Source of the DNA: an uncultured Collinsella sp. | GTDB lineage: Bacteria > Actinomycetota > Coriobacteriia > Coriobacteriales > Coriobacteriaceae | DNA length: 41,653 nucleotides | NCBI GenBank assembly: GCA_934650975.1 | Contig: CAKUFW010000012.1 | Location: 1 to 41,653 of the forward strand | Direction: 5' to 3' | In this document: positions 25,439 to 31,048 of the stretch, in pieces | How positions within the stretch are numbered: the first letter of the stretch is position 1 | How the letters are laid out: each line of letters begins with the position of its first letter | The notes under the pieces: generated by a model | Told to the model about the DNA's origin: nothing | The model's input: the letters and a program-made list of their open reading frames with translations, nothing else | Database searches by the model: none | Translations under genes and position numbers: made by a program

Positions 25439-27040
25439 ATGAACCAGATACTTCTCTTTATCGGCCTCGTCATCATTTTGTGCCTGACCATCAAGCCCGT
25501 CGGCAAAAAGCTCCCCTTCCCCACCCTACTCATCTTTATCGCGCTCGGCATGCTGCTGGGCGTCAACGGCCCGGCGCACATCGACTTTAGCGACTACGCG
25601 CTCACCGAAACCGTCTGCAGCACGGCGTTGCTGTTCATCATGTTCTATGGCGGCTTTAACACCAACATCGACCGCGCCAAACCCGTCGCCGTGCCCGCGG
25701 TGCTGCTGAGCACGCTCGGCGTCGTCATCACCTCTGGCATTACGGGCGCGTTTGCGCACTTCGCACTGGGTTTCGACTGGATCGGCGGCCTGCTGCTGGG
25801 CTCCGTTGTGGCATCCACCGATGCGGCGAGCGTCTTTAGCGTGCTGCGCGAGCACAGCCTATCGCTCTGCAACGGCACCGACTCGCTGCTCGAGGTAGAA
25901 TCGGGCTCCAACGACCCCGTCGCCTACATGCTCACCGCGGTGCTCGCGACCCTCGCCGCCGGCGGCGACATCGACATCCCCGTGCTGCTGGCCAAGCAAA
26001 TCATCCTGGGCGTGGGGCTGGGCCTTGTCATCGGCTGGGCATCGGGGCGCCTGATCGAGCGCGCGCACGCAACGGCCGAGGGCGCGCAGACCATCTTTTT
26101 GTTCGCCGTGGCCATCGTCGCCTACGCGCTGCCGAGCTACCTGGGCGGCAACGGCTTTTTGGCCGTGTACCTGGCCGGCATCGTACTGGGCGCGAGTGAC
26201 ATCACCGGCAAGGTCGAGCTGGCGCACTTCTTCGACACCCTTACCGAAATGGCCGAGATGACCATCTTCTTTTTGCTCGGCCTGCTCGTGACGCCCGCGC
26301 GCCTGCCTCAAATGCTGCTGCCGGGCCTGGCACTCATGGCGTTTATGCTCTTCGTGAGTCGCCCCATCGCCGTCGGCATGCTGCTGGCACCGTTTAAGAC
26401 GAACCCTCGCCAGGTAGCGCTCGTAAGCTGGGCGGGACTGCGCGGCGCGGCATCGGTCGTCTTTAGCCTCTTTGCCATGGTGGCCGGCGTTCCCGGAGGC
26501 CACGACCTGTTTGACCTGGTGTTTGTAATTGCCGTATCGAGCATTGTGGTACAGGGCTCGCTGCTGCCGTCGGTGGCGAAAAAGCTCGACATGATCGATG
26601 CCACCGGCGACGTGCGCCGCACCTTTAACGATTATCGCGACGAGGACGGTATGTCGTTCGTCAAGCTTAAGGTGGGCGCGGGCCATCCGTTTGCCGGGCG
26701 CTCGCTTGCCGATATTGGCAGTGCTACGAATATGCTCGTCGTCCTGGTGCTGCGCGACGGTGCGCACCCGGTGCTGCCCAACGGCGATACCGTCATCGAG
26801 GAAGGCGACCTGTTGGTGATGGCCGCACCGACGTTTGAAGAGCGTGCCGGGGTTACGCTGCGCGAGGTCACCGTAACGCCCCACGGACGTCTGGCCGGGC
26901 AGCGCCTGCGCGACGTGCCGCAAGGCAAGCACCCGTTTATCGTCGTGATGCTCAAGCGCGACGGACAAACGATCATCCCCGACGGCAACACCCTCATATT
27001 CGCCGGCGACGAAGCCGTCATCGCCACGCTGGCGTCGTAG
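25439..27040 (+). CDS. CPA1-type potassium or sodium/proton antiporter
   Basis: A 533-residue membrane protein. Residues 1 to about 390 form 12-13 hydrophobic segments with the cation/proton antiporter motifs STDAA (126-130) and ESGSNDP (154-160). The C-terminal 150 residues hold two RCK_C/TrkA-C-like modules (MSFVKLKVGAGHPFAGRSL onward, then VTVTPHGRLAGQRLRDVP), as in the CvrA/NhaP2 potassium/proton antiporters. These domains usually gate transport in response to nucleotides such as c-di-AMP or NAD(H). AGGAG lies about 12 bases before the ATG. It probably exports K+ or Na+ for pH and osmotic balance. Confidence 0.9.
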   Translation: MNQILLFIGLVIILCLTIKPVGKKLPFPTLLIFIALGMLLGVNGPAHIDFSDYALTETVCSTALLFIMFYGGFNTNIDRAKPVAVPAVLLSTLGVVITSGITGAFAHFALGFDWIGGLLLGSVVASTDAASVFSVLREHSLSLCNGTDSLLEVESGSNDPVAYMLTAVLATLAAGGDIDIPVLLAKQIILGVGLGLVIGWASGRLIERAHATAEGAQTIFLFAVAIVAYALPSYLGGNGFLAVYLAGIVLGASDITGKVELAHFFDTLTEMAEMTIFFLLGLLVTPARLPQMLLPGLALMAFMLFVSRPIAVGMLLAPFKTNPRQVALVSWAGLRGAASVVFSLFAMVAGVPGGHDLFDLVFVIAVSSIVVQGSLLPSVAKKLDMIDATGDVRRTFNDYRDEDGMSFVKLKVGAGHPFAGRSLADIGSATNMLVVLVLRDGAHPVLPNGDTVIEEGDLLVMAAPTFEERAGVTLREVTVTPHGRLAGQRLRDVPQGKHPFIVVMLKRDGQTIIPDGNTLIFAGDEAVIATLAS

Positions 27041-27047
27041 CAGTCAA

Positions 27048-27377
27048 GGGTAACTAAAAGAGACGCGACCCGACTTGGCTACATTTGAGCATCAATCGCC
27101 CCGGATGGAGTCTCGTTGCGGACAATTTGCGTCTGGCAAAACTAAGTGAGTAGACTTTTGCCGAACCGCCGACCACGCCACCAAAGCACAAGTCTGTGAC
27201 CTGCGGGTTTATTGAAGCAAACTTGTCGTGTGCCCAGGATTTCCAATAAAGCCTACTCACTCAGCCTGCGGGCAGTCAAAATAGAGCGATCGCGAGGACG
27301 TTAGACTCCATTGCGACGGCTTATCGCGCATTTTCGCGCAGCCGCGGATGCAGACGCGCCGTCCCATATTAGCTACC
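27048..27377. repeat. Large nested fold-back element with ACCTGCGGGTTT core
   Basis: Imperfect inverted repeats are nested: GGGTAACTAA/TTAGCTACCC at the ends, ATGGAGTCT/AGACTCCAT inside, and AGTGAGTAG/CTACTCACT innermost. The centre (27189-27213) has CAAGTCTGTGACCTGCGGG, matching the cores at 494-518 (19 of 25) and 721-745. It fills the gap between the antiporter gene and a small acidic-protein gene and shows no coding sense. Confidence 0.6.
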
Positions 27378-27385
27378 CCCGCCCC

Positions 27386-27577
27386 TTAGTCCTCGTCGAC
27401 AGCGAAGTCGCGGAGGTCGAGGCCTTCTCGTTCGGCTCGGGCTAGGAGCTCTTGGGGAGACTCGTCCTCGATATCCACTACGTCGAGCATAGCAGCCGGA
27501 AAGCCCACGCCCGCCGCACTCCCCGCGCGGTCGAGCAGGCTCTCGCACAGCTGGTCAACATCGACTTCGATTTTCAT
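27386..27577 (-). CDS. Small acidic protein of unknown function
   Basis: A 63-residue strongly acidic protein (many Asp and Glu, ending FAVDED) with no recognised domain. It starts MKIEVDVDQLCESLLDRAG and has a predicted central helix, SPQELLARAEREGLD. AGGGGG lies eight bases before the ATG at 27577. It is divergent from the MazG-like gene, about 115 bases apart, and its stop lies just beyond a large fold-back element. Size and charge would suit a DNA-mimic, antitoxin or adaptor, but nothing in the sequence decides this. Confidence 0.55.
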   Translation of the reverse strand: MKIEVDVDQLCESLLDRAGSAAGVGFPAAMLDVVDIEDESPQELLARAEREGLDLRDFAVDED

Positions 27578-27632
27578 GGTGAAACCCCCTGTCGGGCAAC
27601 CGTGGCCGAACAAACCGCACGTCCCAAATGAT

Positions 27633-27661
27633 GTGCAATAAATCCCAGATACGGCCATAAT
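27633..27661 (+). promoter_or_regulatory. Promoter candidate for the MazG/helicase unit
   Basis: CATAAT (27656-27661), one base from consensus, lies 17 bases after a weak GTGCAA. The box ends about 30 bases before the MazG-like start codon. Confidence 0.35.
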
Positions 27662-27692
27662 AAAGCAGTGAACAGCAGGGAGGTTGTGGACG

Positions 27693-28049
27693 ATGGATAA
27701 GCTTGATGTCATGACGAAACAAGTCAGGGACTTTTGTGATGCACGCAGTTGGCGCAAATATCACACGCCAAAAGAGCTTGCCATCGGCATGGCAACTGAG
27801 TCCTCCGAGCTCCTTCAGCTCTTTCGTTTTATGAGCGACGAGCACATTGCAGGAATGCTCGAAGACACCGAGCAACGCCAAGCCATCGAAGACGAAATTG
27901 CCGACACGCTCCTCTTTCTCCTGCGTTTTTCCGATCTAAACGGAATCGATCTCCCGGCTGCACTCTCGTCCAAGCTCAAGCGCAATGGTGAGCGCTACCC
28001 CGTCGACGCATCATCAAACGAATACAGAAAGGCGGGCCACCGTGAGTAA
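27693..28049 (+). CDS. MazG-like nucleotide pyrophosphohydrolase
   Basis: A 118-residue all-alpha NTP pyrophosphatase of the MazG/RS21-C6 type, which converts (d)NTPs to monophosphates. The metal-binding signature is intact: EXXE at 36-39 (ESSE) and EXXD at 68-71 (EIAD), with KYHTPKELAIGMATE before it. GGGAGG lies nine bases upstream of the ATG. The last eight bases overlap the GTG start of the next gene, so the two are translationally coupled. Codon use is richer in A and T than the neighbours, suggesting acquisition. Enzymes of this size often clean up non-canonical nucleotides. The partner suggests a special role. Confidence 0.88.
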   Translation: MDKLDVMTKQVRDFCDARSWRKYHTPKELAIGMATESSELLQLFRFMSDEHIAGMLEDTEQRQAIEDEIADTLLFLLRFSDLNGIDLPAALSSKLKRNGERYPVDASSNEYRKAGHRE

Positions 28050-29784
28050 TGAGTTCGCCCTTCGGCAATACACGCTTCCCCTACCCAAGCCCTTCGAGAC
28101 AAGCGAATCGCTACAAGACTTTGGCACGCCAGAGCCCGGGGCTCACCATGACGAGAGCTGGCCTGTTCTCTACATCCTGACTAACAGTAAAAAGAAGACG
28201 GCATACATTGGCCAAACTACCAACTATCAACGCCGCATGAAGCAACACGCCGCAAACGCTGACAAGGACTTCGATCGAACACTTCTGATCGACAACCCCA
28301 CATTCAATCAGTCAGCGACATTTGAGTTTGAAAACCGGCTCATCGAACTGTTCTGCGCTGACGAAAAATACCAGGTGACCAATGGCAACAATGGCTATGC
28401 CCAATTCGATTACTTTGAGCGGCCTCAGTACCGCCAGAAGTTCCGAACGCTGTGGACAAAGCTGCGCGAAGAAAACTACGCGATTCACCCCATCGAAGAA
28501 CTCGAGAACACTGACCTGTTTAAATTCTCGCCTTTCAAAACGCTCACACCCGATCAATATGAAACGATTGAGACGATTTACAAGCGTCTCGAGCAGGAAC
28601 AGAAAGACGTTGAGCAAGGCGGCCCCAAGAAGAAACGCGTAACCATCGTAAACGGCGCGCCTGGAACAGGCAAAACCATCCTTGCCATCAGCCTCATGTT
28701 CAAAATCAAAAACGAACCCAAGCTATCCGGCCTGCGGGTCGGTTTCGTGACACCCATGGAGTCCCTTAATAAGACGCTCAAAAAACTCACGCGCTATCTT
28801 CCTGGGTTAAAGCCTGGCGACATCCTGACCCCCAGCGACGTAACCAAGAAGGATCGGTATGACATCTTGCTTGTCGACGAGGCGCACCGGCTGGGCAATT
28901 ACTTGACAGCCGGTGCCGGCATCGGAGCTTTTTACAACACATGCGAGCGACTCAACTTGCCTCGTACGAGCAGCCAGGTGGATTGGATTTTCAAATGCTG
29001 CGACAAGGCTTACCTGTTCTACGACCCCAAACAGCAGGTCCGCGCATCTGGACTCAATCGAAACGACCTTGAGCAGCGACTCAATCAGCTCGAAGAAGCG
29101 GGTATCGAAACTGAAGAATTCAACCTAAGCACGCAAATGCGCGTACGCGGTGGCGACGAATACCTCGATTTTATCTACGACTTACTCGACAACAAGGCAT
29201 ACATGCATGCCGGCATGAAGTTCGAAGAACTCTTTTCATCGGAGCCTTACGATTCGCGGGCCGGGGATCCGAACAGTGATGTTCCCAGATACCAGTTTGG
29301 AATCATCGACCGATTTGAGGAATTCTGTTCCTTGCAGCAAGCCAAGGAAGAAGAAGTTGGCCTTTCCCGCATGATGGCAGGCTTTGCGTGGAAGTGGGAA
29401 ACGAAGAATAACAAAGACGCGTTCGACATCGTCATCGAAGGCATCCCTAAACGTTGGAACTCAACTCAAAAGGATTGGGTTAACTCCGCCAACGCCGTCA
29501 ACGAGGTCGGATGCATCCACACCGTACAGGGCTACGACCTCAACTACGGCTTCGTAATTCTGGGGCCAGACATTTACTACGACACCGGCAAGAATGCCGT
29601 CTGCGTTAACAGGACGAACTTTAAAGATGCTGTCGCAAAGAAAAAAGCAAACGACGACGACCTACGAAAGATCATCGTCAACGCTTACTACGTTCTCATG
29701 ACGCGCGGCATGCTGGGAACGTTTCTTTTTGTATGCGACCCGGCGCTCAAGGAGTATTTGTCACGGTATATCCCGGTGATATAG
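28042..29784 (+). CDS. GIY-YIG nuclease / SF1 helicase fusion (DUF2075)
   Basis: A 580-residue cytoplasmic protein in two parts. Residues 40-115 resemble a GIY-YIG endonuclease: VLYILTN, TAYIGQT with Y55, the RRMKQH segment, E96/E98 before NRLIELF, and N113. Residues 198-580 are a DUF2075/Schlafen-like superfamily 1 ATPase: Walker A GAPGTGKT at 205-212, Walker B LLVDEAH at 276-282, STQMRVRGG near 363, TVQGYD at 494-499 and LMTRG at 552-556. All key residues look intact. The GTG start overlaps the MazG-like stop (GTGAGTAA). Codons are clearly AT-richer than the surroundings. Probably a nucleic-acid-cleaving ATPase with a nucleotide-hydrolysing partner. Phage defence is inferred, not shown. Confidence 0.85.
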   Translation: MSNEFALRQYTLPLPKPFETSESLQDFGTPEPGAHHDESWPVLYILTNSKKKTAYIGQTTNYQRRMKQHAANADKDFDRTLLIDNPTFNQSATFEFENRLIELFCADEKYQVTNGNNGYAQFDYFERPQYRQKFRTLWTKLREENYAIHPIEELENTDLFKFSPFKTLTPDQYETIETIYKRLEQEQKDVEQGGPKKKRVTIVNGAPGTGKTILAISLMFKIKNEPKLSGLRVGFVTPMESLNKTLKKLTRYLPGLKPGDILTPSDVTKKDRYDILLVDEAHRLGNYLTAGAGIGAFYNTCERLNLPRTSSQVDWIFKCCDKAYLFYDPKQQVRASGLNRNDLEQRLNQLEEAGIETEEFNLSTQMRVRGGDEYLDFIYDLLDNKAYMHAGMKFEELFSSEPYDSRAGDPNSDVPRYQFGIIDRFEEFCSLQQAKEEEVGLSRMMAGFAWKWETKNNKDAFDIVIEGIPKRWNSTQKDWVNSANAVNEVGCIHTVQGYDLNYGFVILGPDIYYDTGKNAVCVNRTNFKDAVAKKKANDDDLRKIIVNAYYVLMTRGMLGTFLFVCDPALKEYLSRYIPVI

Positions 29785-29923
29785 GCTGACGCCAGGTCTT
29801 CCATGTAACCATCCTGTAAATCATAGCAGCGCACTCGGGTTTTGCTGTGATGCGGTCGCGCCCGATGCTGCACTGTGCTAAAGTATCCCGAACGTTCAAA
29901 CGACTACGAGGGGGACCCAGAAG

Positions 29924-31048
29924 ATGGCACGTGTGCACAACTTCTCAGCAGGCCCGGCCGCACTGCCCACCAGCGTGCTCGCCGAGATCGCCGACGAGAT
30001 GATGGACTACCGCGGTTGCGGCATGTCCGTGCTCGAGATGAGCCATCGATCTAGTATGTACCAGCAGATTATCGACGACGCCGAGGCAACCCTGCGCCGC
30101 CTGCTGAGCATCCCCGATAACTACCGCGTCCTGTTTTTGCAGGGCGGCGCCACGCTGCAGTTTGCGGGCATCCCGATGAACCTCATGCGCCGCGGCCGCG
30201 CCGGCTACGTCGTGACCGGCAACTTTGCCAACAAGGCGTACAAGGAGGCCGCCAAGTACGGCGAGGCCGTGCTGCTCGCGAGCTCCGAGGACACCAACTT
30301 CGACCGCATTCCCAACATGGCCGACATCAACGCGCGCATTGCCGCCGAGGCCGCGGGCGACGGGCTCGACTACGTCTACATCTGCCAGAACAACACCATC
30401 TTTGGCACCATGTTCCACGAGCTGCCCGATTGCGGCGACGTGCCGCTGGTCGCCGACGTCTCGAGCTGTTTTCTGTCGCAGCCGCTCGACGTCGAGCGCT
30501 ACGGACTCATCTACGCCGGCGCTCAGAAAAACGCCGGTGCCGCGGGCGTAACCGTGGTCATCGTGCGCGACGACCTCATCGCAGATGGCCCTGCCTTTGC
30601 GCAGACGCCGCAGTACCTGAACCTTAAGACCCAGGCCGCCAAAGGCTCCATGCTCAACACGCCCAACACCTTTGGCATCTACGTGTGCGGCAAGGTATTC
30701 CGTTGGGTCGAGGAGACCGGCGGACTTGCAGCCATGGCCGAGCGCAACTGGGCCAAGGCCAACCTGCTCTATGACCTGCTCGAGCACAGCGAGCTGTTCC
30801 GTGGCACCACGCAGGCCGACAGCCGCTCCATCGCCAACGTCACCTTCCGCACCGGCGACGCCGAACTCGACGCGGCCTTTGTCGCAGGCGCGGCCGAGCA
30901 CCAGATTCAAAACGTCAAGGGCCATCGCCTGGTGGGCGGCATGCGCGCCAGCGTCTACAACGCCGTGACCATGGAAGACGTGCAGGCACTGGCCTCATAC
31001 ATGAAGGACTTCGAAGCACAGCATAGTTTGAGTCCGCGATCTAACTAG
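29924..31048 (+). CDS. serC: Phosphoserine aminotransferase
   Basis: A 374-residue PLP enzyme of the class V aminotransferase family. It converts 3-phosphohydroxypyruvate and glutamate to phosphoserine. The N-terminal NFSAGPAALP and the schiff-base lysine K202 in YAGAQKNAGAAG are intact, with FLQGGATLQF binding the cofactor phosphate. A G-rich ribosome site (GAGGGGG) precedes the ATG. serA follows after 69 bases on the same strand, so the two probably form an operon for serine synthesis. A TAAAGT box at about 29879 may be its -10. The serB phosphatase is not in the window, although two histidine-phosphatase genes lie about 4 kb away. Confidence 0.97.
   Translation: MARVHNFSAGPAALPTSVLAEIADEMMDYRGCGMSVLEMSHRSSMYQQIIDDAEATLRRLLSIPDNYRVLFLQGGATLQFAGIPMNLMRRGRAGYVVTGNFANKAYKEAAKYGEAVLLASSEDTNFDRIPNMADINARIAAEAAGDGLDYVYICQNNTIFGTMFHELPDCGDVPLVADVSSCFLSQPLDVERYGLIYAGAQKNAGAAGVTVVIVRDDLIADGPAFAQTPQYLNLKTQAAKGSMLNTPNTFGIYVCGKVFRWVEETGGLAAMAERNWAKANLLYDLLEHSELFRGTTQADSRSIANVTFRTGDAELDAAFVAGAAEHQIQNVKGHRLVGGMRASVYNAVTMEDVQALASYMKDFEAQHSLSPRSN

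Follow-up and report, generated by a model that had tools for sequence, protein, structure and literature searches.

A MazG-like pyrophosphohydrolase and a GIY-YIG helicase encoded as a probable antivirus pair at a Collinsella defense hotspot

Gabija, built from GajA and GajB, is a defense system that uses a different nuclease from the GIY-YIG type, carries it in a separate ATPase protein, and is not known to have a MazG component. DCTPP1 (RS21-C6), in turn, is an animal housekeeping enzyme with no known nuclease partner. In the part of the DefensePredictor report that we draw on, the MazG nucleoside triphosphate (NTP) pyrophosphohydrolase is named among predicted defense domains of which "none have been experimentally validated" (PMC13092281), and an excerpt of another paper places PF09848, a helicase family, among the Pfams used for Abi proteins (PMC10121019). 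Here we describe two overlapping genes that bring such parts together, located in a stretch of 41,653 nucleotides from an uncultured Collinsella sp. (contig CAKUFW010000012.1 of assembly GCA_934650975.1; the whole stretch is hereafter the window). The first (27693..28049, plus strand) encodes a MazG-like, DCTPP1-type nucleotide pyrophosphohydrolase of 118 amino acids (aa), and the second (28042..29784, plus strand) a 580-aa GIY-YIG nuclease joined to an SLFN-g3/DUF2075 superfamily 1 (SF1) helicase. A sequence-only reading of the window had put the pair forward as a candidate defense unit, an interpretation that hotspot location and family linkage now support. The pair is probably an unnamed antivirus defense, because its site holds a known antivirus system in some close relatives and because related pairs recur across bacteria and in an archaeon. 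Location and linkage make a defense function highly likely. We also consider it likely, with somewhat less confidence, that the genes form a two-gene unit against phages or other mobile elements at this hotspot, with a nuclease-helicase effector and a MazG accessory acting on deoxycytidine triphosphate (dCTP).

An insertion site shared with BREX

The pair lies between a gene for a Na+/H+ antiporter (25439..27040, plus strand; PF00999) and one for a serC-type class V aminotransferase (29924..31048, plus strand; PF00266), chromosomal flanks that adjoin each other at empty sites. The serC product reaches 97% identity with its counterparts in genomes of the genus, and the interval between the two flanking genes was surveyed in 22 close Collinsella genomes in which this product is at least 95% identical. 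Ten sites are empty, with an interval of ~229-231 bp (G010, G009, G019, G018, G012, G011, G007, G005, G026, and G004), and eight hold brxA, brxB, and brxC (G031, G003, G035, G002, G006, G008, G034, and G021). The pair occupies two (G024 and G001), another island of ~13.8 kb occupies one (G032), and in the last (G033) the contig ends too early to resolve the site. The brx genes were identified by Pfam and PADLOC matches in one representative (L093) and by homology in the remaining genomes; the BREX island of G006 additionally encodes PglX, PglZ, and BrxL, and in G021 a stretch of ~13 kb that contains other genes separates brx from serC. The antiporter-serC interval is a defense hotspot, marked here for a common gut genus.

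Insertion of the pair replaces ~100 bp of the empty-site intergenic stretch, and the shared right flank begins near 29802. Rather than being conserved in all relatives at this locus, the pair is confined to the two surveyed sites given above, and the helicase is present in 4 of 43 genus genomes. A contig of C. aerofaciens, the only genome contig recovered by a scan for close relatives, encodes a helicase 89% identical to that of the window. As had been claimed from sequence, the pair is richer in AT than its neighbors, with a G+C content of 51.3% compared to 62.1% in the window outside 27041-29923, and third-codon-position G+C of 0.61 and 0.64 compared to 0.83 and 0.85 in the two flanking genes. 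Both open reading frames (ORFs) are intact. Compared with the two closest copies, substitutions are mostly synonymous, and the ratio of nonsynonymous to synonymous substitution rates (0.05 for the helicase; 0.15 and 0.28 for MazG) indicates that the pair is under constraint and not in decay. A role in DNA repair or nucleotide-pool housekeeping, with no part in defense, would suit what is generally known of the families, in that MazG/DCTPP1 enzymes clean nucleotide pools and SF1 helicases repair DNA. The patchy presence of the pair, its foreign composition, its exchange with BREX at the same site, and the defense genes found near its relatives all argue against such a role, which we hold to be quite improbable.

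Two further elements lie between the antiporter gene and the pair. The first is a 63-aa acidic ORF at the border of the hotspot (27386..27577, minus strand), divergent from the pair and without a Pfam, PADLOC, or NCBIfam match up to E 1. It is present at nine occupied-site loci, whether these hold BREX, the pair, or the other island, and ten empty-site loci gave no match to it, which suggests that it travels with islands whatever their cargo; it is probably not part of the system. The second is a dispersed fold-back repeat beside the antiporter gene (27041..27389, no strand assigned), separate from the pair and weak, with 17-nt inverted arms that are 88% complementary. Related copies occur in the examined stretches of seven of the ten empty-site genomes (L090, L091, L096, L101, L151, L154, and L156); in two siblings that carry BREX (L163 and L165) a copy adjoins the border ORF, as it does in the window, and in others it lies elsewhere in the region. 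The sequence-only reading had taken both foreign composition and this element as signs of mobility. The composition stands, but the fold-back element is ruled out as a mobility signal for the pair, being a dispersed repeat that is also found at empty sites. A plasmid origin of the window copy was likewise rejected, as there was no near match to the pair, and the similarity to one plasmid record was limited to 123 bases toward serC.

The island at the hotspot in G032 (L162:3054-15299) comprises six genes for large proteins, one of which matches PADLOC (a weak ZorD-like match of 64 bits). Beside the BREX genes of G021 lies a set that is similar to it, as judged from sequence starts (L155:5507-14486). 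The island of G032 is possibly another uncharacterized defense system.

Linkage of the two families in genomes, plasmids, and phages

Samples of the class Coriobacteriia (396 genomes) and of the phylum were each drawn evenly from a larger group. The helicase of the window, used as a query, matched 28 class genomes at E 1e-30, and a class MazG query matched 55 at E 1e-6; 20 genomes had both, eight the helicase only, and 35 MazG only (Fisher P = 3e-13). In 30 of these 35 MazG-only genomes, MazG adjoins a helicase of the SLFN-g3 type that is further removed from the query. A helicase ORF lies within ~205 bp of MazG at 48 of 55 loci, and at two others (L168 and L182) the helicase reaches the end of the stretch examined, so that MazG stands beside a helicase at 50 of 55 loci, a count that includes a 115-aa helicase fragment (L201). 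Five class MazG loci have no helicase (L171, L173, L174, L176, and L187); the neighbor at L174 looks like what we take to be DUF3800, as do proteins at the helicase locus L080 and at the serC site of L097. Distances among the MazG proteins are correlated with those among the helicases (Mantel r = 0.94, n = 16; r = 0.60, P = 0.01, n = 12 once the window clade is removed), a relationship that could reflect co-inheritance or shared species history alike.

Among the 48 listed pairs, the N-terminal nuclease is a short GIY-YIG domain in 19, a long GIY-YIG form in 12 (proteins of ~690-775 aa), PD-(D/E)XK-like in 16, and a fragment in one (L201). A script placed MazG upstream in 27 pairs, downstream in 16, and convergent in five, the "downstream" call for L069 being an artifact of an over-long ORF. 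Given three nuclease types and three arrangements, the helicase and MazG keep each other's company through changes of nuclease and of gene order. This tight and recurrent pairing, with nucleases exchanged around a constant core, suggests a system directed at DNA and its precursors together. The PD-(D/E)XK-like assignment is a motif reading (E68, D79, and E97-x-K99, invariant in 13 proteins), and four proteins of this type (L188, L196, L197, and L199) have no nuclease motif in the called ORF. No Pfam nuclease model matched either of the two variants scanned, and a structure model of such a variant (predicted local distance difference test [pLDDT] 65.9) was too poor for use, its fold search returning helicases and other ATPases but no nuclease.

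The association extends to mobile elements. In a scan of 72,556 plasmids, the helicase query matched 36 records and the MazG query 23; both occur together in 12, where ~0.01 would be expected (Fisher P = 4e-35). With 12 of 23 plasmid MazG records and 50 of 55 class loci, the two families are anything but rarely found together elsewhere. The matches in the 12 records lie <1.3 kb apart in seven and >3 kb apart in five, one of which (NZ_CP114768.1) may have its matches nearer across the circular origin; the helicase of a Marivirga plasmid is broken into several frames. The 12 hosts come from Bacillota, Bacteroidota, Pseudomonadota, Actinomycetota, and one haloarchaeon, on whose plasmid MazG and DUF2075 are 5 bases apart. 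A Priestia plasmid carries MazG and DUF2075 among MutT, a DUF3578 protein, an N-6 methylase with its specificity subunit, and an ABC-three-component set. On a Lactiplantibacillus plasmid (L116:2246-7641), an annotated (deoxy)nucleoside triphosphate pyrophosphohydrolase and a DEAD/DEAH helicase stand directly upstream of a MazG-DUF2075 pair; the theme of a nucleotide enzyme with a helicase recurs there with other families. A phage origin of the pair was rejected, with one confirmed relative in an IMG/VR scan and matches in 4 of the 50,697 phage records searched, of which three are fecal scaffolds marked Bacteriophage sp. MazG adjoins the helicase in both of the loci examined (L119 and L120). 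In the second of these, a fecal Bacteriophage sp. scaffold (L120:2992-6965), a single MazG lies between two DUF2075-type helicases, one nearer the PD-(D/E)XK profile and the other nearer the GIY-YIG profile.

Related loci also have defense genes in their surroundings. The flanks of 18 paired loci (130 of 143 proteins used; L063 and L088 dropped) matched 111 PADLOC families at E 1e-20, figures that count families and not proteins, so that one large helicase can match many, and that we take as supporting evidence only. Nine flank proteins from eight loci, chosen for size, were also scanned singly at E 1e-40. Seven of them, from six loci, matched: Cas3 (L064 and L071), HmaA and HmaB (L065), Cas9 (L067), part of MkoA (L069), and an HKD+Snf2 protein (L076). 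The large flank proteins of L068 and L082 had no PADLOC match at this threshold. Among plasmid helicase relatives without MazG, one lies by type III-A CRISPR genes and one a few genes from a nucleotidyltransferase-E2-Mov34 set.

Several observations weigh against a dedicated defense pair. First, 18 arbitrary class-genome regions (127 of 133 proteins used; L212 and L219 dropped) also matched PADLOC, in 16 families, 12 of which were DpdF models with one member each. Second, 8 of the 28 helicase-bearing class genomes have no MazG match, as judged by a single query at E 1e-6 that a divergent MazG could escape. On plasmids, 24 of 36 helicase records lack a MazG match, including six of the eight plasmid loci examined first (L111-L115 and L118), and 11 of 23 MazG records lack a helicase match, several of them in ordinary surroundings. 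Third, in phylum genomes outside the class draw, a helicase lies within 1.5 kb on each side at 10 of the 24 MazG loci examined, six further weak matches having no locus; with some plasmid MazG in ordinary surroundings, this proportion suggests that the wider MazG family is not dedicated. Fourth, no clean MazG-helicase fusion was found (4 of 540 candidates passed); P0124 (659 aa), which combines a MazG part and a DUF2075 protein in one frame, was discounted as a fusion because both parts read as missing pieces. Finally, the MazG of the window is ~30% identical to the class-majority MazG and lacks its KYTEL tail, and its substrate may therefore differ. It is thus a subfamily of MazG, rather than MazG as a whole, that has the dedicated association, and the helicase can dispense with MazG.

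Eight helicase genomes without MazG, set against 5 of 55 MazG loci without a helicase, suggest that MazG is the dependent partner, either as a helper or as an effector run by the helicase. The same eight genomes fit a helper better than an obligatory antitoxin. The alternative hypothesis is that MazG would neutralize a harmful nuclease-helicase, the two forming a toxin-antitoxin pair or a selfish module for maintenance. The overlapping two-gene layout, with the MazG gene preceding the helicase gene in all three copies at the site (the window, L062, and L063), and the plasmid-borne relatives are what such a module would predict. The 8 of 28 class helicases without MazG and the convergent arrangement of 5 of the 48 pairs speak against it, and we hold this alternative to be very improbable.

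The two proteins and how they may act

The MazG-like ORF most plausibly starts at ATG 27693, which is better positioned after AGGGAGG than TTG 27684, and its stop codon is at 28047-28049. The helicase ORF runs from GTG 28042 to a stop at 29782-29784, sharing with the MazG gene the 8 bases of overlap noted from sequence; its two closest relatives have ATG in place of GTG. In the helicase protein, the GIY-YIG domain (approximately residues 40-118; 28159..28395, plus strand) scores 32.2 bits to PF01541 (cutoff, 22.6), and the SLFN-g3 SF1 helicase core (residues 198-566; 28633..29739, plus strand) scores 198.6 bits to PF09848 SLFN-g3_helicase (cutoff, 24), with a GAPGTGKT Walker A motif, a DEAH Walker B motif, QMR, and TRG. 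Across 58 aligned helicases, positions Y44, Y55/G57, R65, E97, and N114 of the GIY-YIG domain, to which family background assigns a catalytic role, are invariant, as are K211, D279/E280/H282, Q365/R367, and R555 of the helicase motifs. The structure model (pLDDT 91) matches SF1 helicases such as FBH1, UvrD, SLFN11, Dda, and Pif1. The predicted fusion of GIY-YIG to a DUF2075/Schlafen-like helicase with intact motifs is thereby upheld, and the protein, as far as its sequence tells, possesses all parts required for acting on DNA.

The MazG-like protein scores 30.6 bits to PF12643, above the cutoff of 27, and 16.1 bits to the PF03819 MazG profile, below the cutoff of 22. Its metal site, in which EXXE is ESSE and EXXD is EIAD, is intact, as had been read, and E36, E39, E68, and D71 are invariant in a 28-row alignment that includes one row entered by hand. 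The closest solved structures are the pyrophosphatase 4qgp (E 1e-16) and then DCTPP1/RS21-C6 (E 9e-15), a dCTP pyrophosphatase that likewise keeps EXXE and EXXD. Judged by these motifs and by curated Pfam thresholds, the protein qualifies as an all-alpha NTP pyrophosphohydrolase of the MazG/DCTPP1 type. DCTPP1 hydrolyzes dCTP and C5-modified dCTP, according to a passage of PMC7162842.

We propose that the helicase would load on or translocate along foreign DNA and that the GIY-YIG domain would nick it; that the nuclease-helicase is the DNA effector is, in our judgment, reasonably likely. The DCTPP1-like MazG would act as an accessory, hydrolyzing dCTP-type deoxynucleotides in the infected cell. 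Its removal of dCTP, possibly C5-modified, could leave phage DNA slowly replicated or unprotected, and DNA in that state would then be destroyed by the nuclease-helicase. The assignment of dCTP or modified dCTP to MazG as a helper is our preferred version but a tentative one, held with less than even confidence and well below that of the effector. We also speculate, as an unlikely though broader generalization, that these loci represent a widespread and undescribed modular immunity of bacteria and archaea, in which a constant SLFN-g3 helicase and a dedicated dCTPP1-like MazG are combined with interchangeable nucleases (short or long GIY-YIG, or PD-(D/E)XK), and MazG strips cytosine nucleotides, those modified by the phage among them, which would leave phage DNA unprotected and open to cutting as it replicates.

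Two other divisions of labor can be envisaged. Nucleotides might keep the nuclease-helicase off until MazG removes them on infection and so licenses cutting, a nucleotide-gated switch with a parallel in Gabija, where nucleotides are reported to hold the system inactive. Gating is improbable, since the nuclease-helicase must be workable alone in the helicase-bearing class genomes that have no MazG match, and since no nucleotide-binding regulatory domain was found among the Pfam matches of the window protein, apart from the ATPase itself. Alternatively, MazG could be a killing effector, with the nuclease-helicase sensing foreign DNA and MazG emptying the deoxynucleotide pool in an abortive response. 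The tight physical coupling at nearly all class MazG loci is in favor, and nucleotide-depleting defense enzymes are known, such as dCTP deaminase, a named defense system in the section of PMC10121019 cited here. However, the nuclease and helicase key residues kept in all 58 aligned proteins would be needless in a mere sensor, and genomes with the helicase alone exist; we rate a killing MazG no higher than a gating one. The pair offers a compact, testable two-gene case for MazG in defense, for which natural MazG-less versions can serve as controls.

Comparison with described systems

Gabija is defined by an ATPase-TOPRIM partner, GajA. In the window the partner is MazG-like instead, and no GajA or GajB model appears among PADLOC matches up to E 1. 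Human SLFN11 is comparable in its helicase domain, but no Schlafen/AlbA RNase domain is among the Pfam matches of the window protein up to E 1. Nor is the MazG gene accompanied by mazE or mazF, its neighbors being the antiporter gene, the 63-aa ORF without a family match, the helicase gene, and serC. The claim that no named system has exactly this pair holds within PADLOC-DB 2023, a database dating from that year, which has no model for the window MazG and gives only partial matches to the helicase, and within searches of the open-licence literature, which returned no description of the pair and no paper on DUF2075 with GIY-YIG, with or without MazG, or with phage defense, although it may be described elsewhere. 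The open-licence papers returned for DUF2075 alone include none on defense, as judged by title. The main text of DefensePredictor, in the part concerned, makes no mention of GIY-YIG, Schlafen, or helicase and leaves MazG partner genes to a figure (PMC13092281); its reference 59, by Burroughs et al., is a nucleotide-centric survey that dates from 2015.

The nearest named relatives are AbiO and Nhi (PDLC02350 and PDLC02372), whose SF1 helicase region is related to that of the window protein. The match is partial, at 45.7 and 44.8 bits over residues 132-387 and 129-386 of 580, with the GIY-YIG domain outside, and it covers only model positions 134-345 of 468 and 148-346 of 470. Next come two PADLOC candidate models and some weaker partial matches. 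PDC-S41 covers portions both of the window helicase and of the DUF2075 proteins with a PD-(D/E)XK-like N-terminus, and PDC-S14 matches the GIY-YIG part. Both candidates differ from the pair in that the matches are partial, the best reaching 51 bits, and that MazG has no PADLOC match. Defense by a nuclease joined to a helicase is thus a known theme, and what stands out in the Collinsella locus and its relatives is the recurrent, tight pairing of such a protein with a nucleotide pyrophosphohydrolase.

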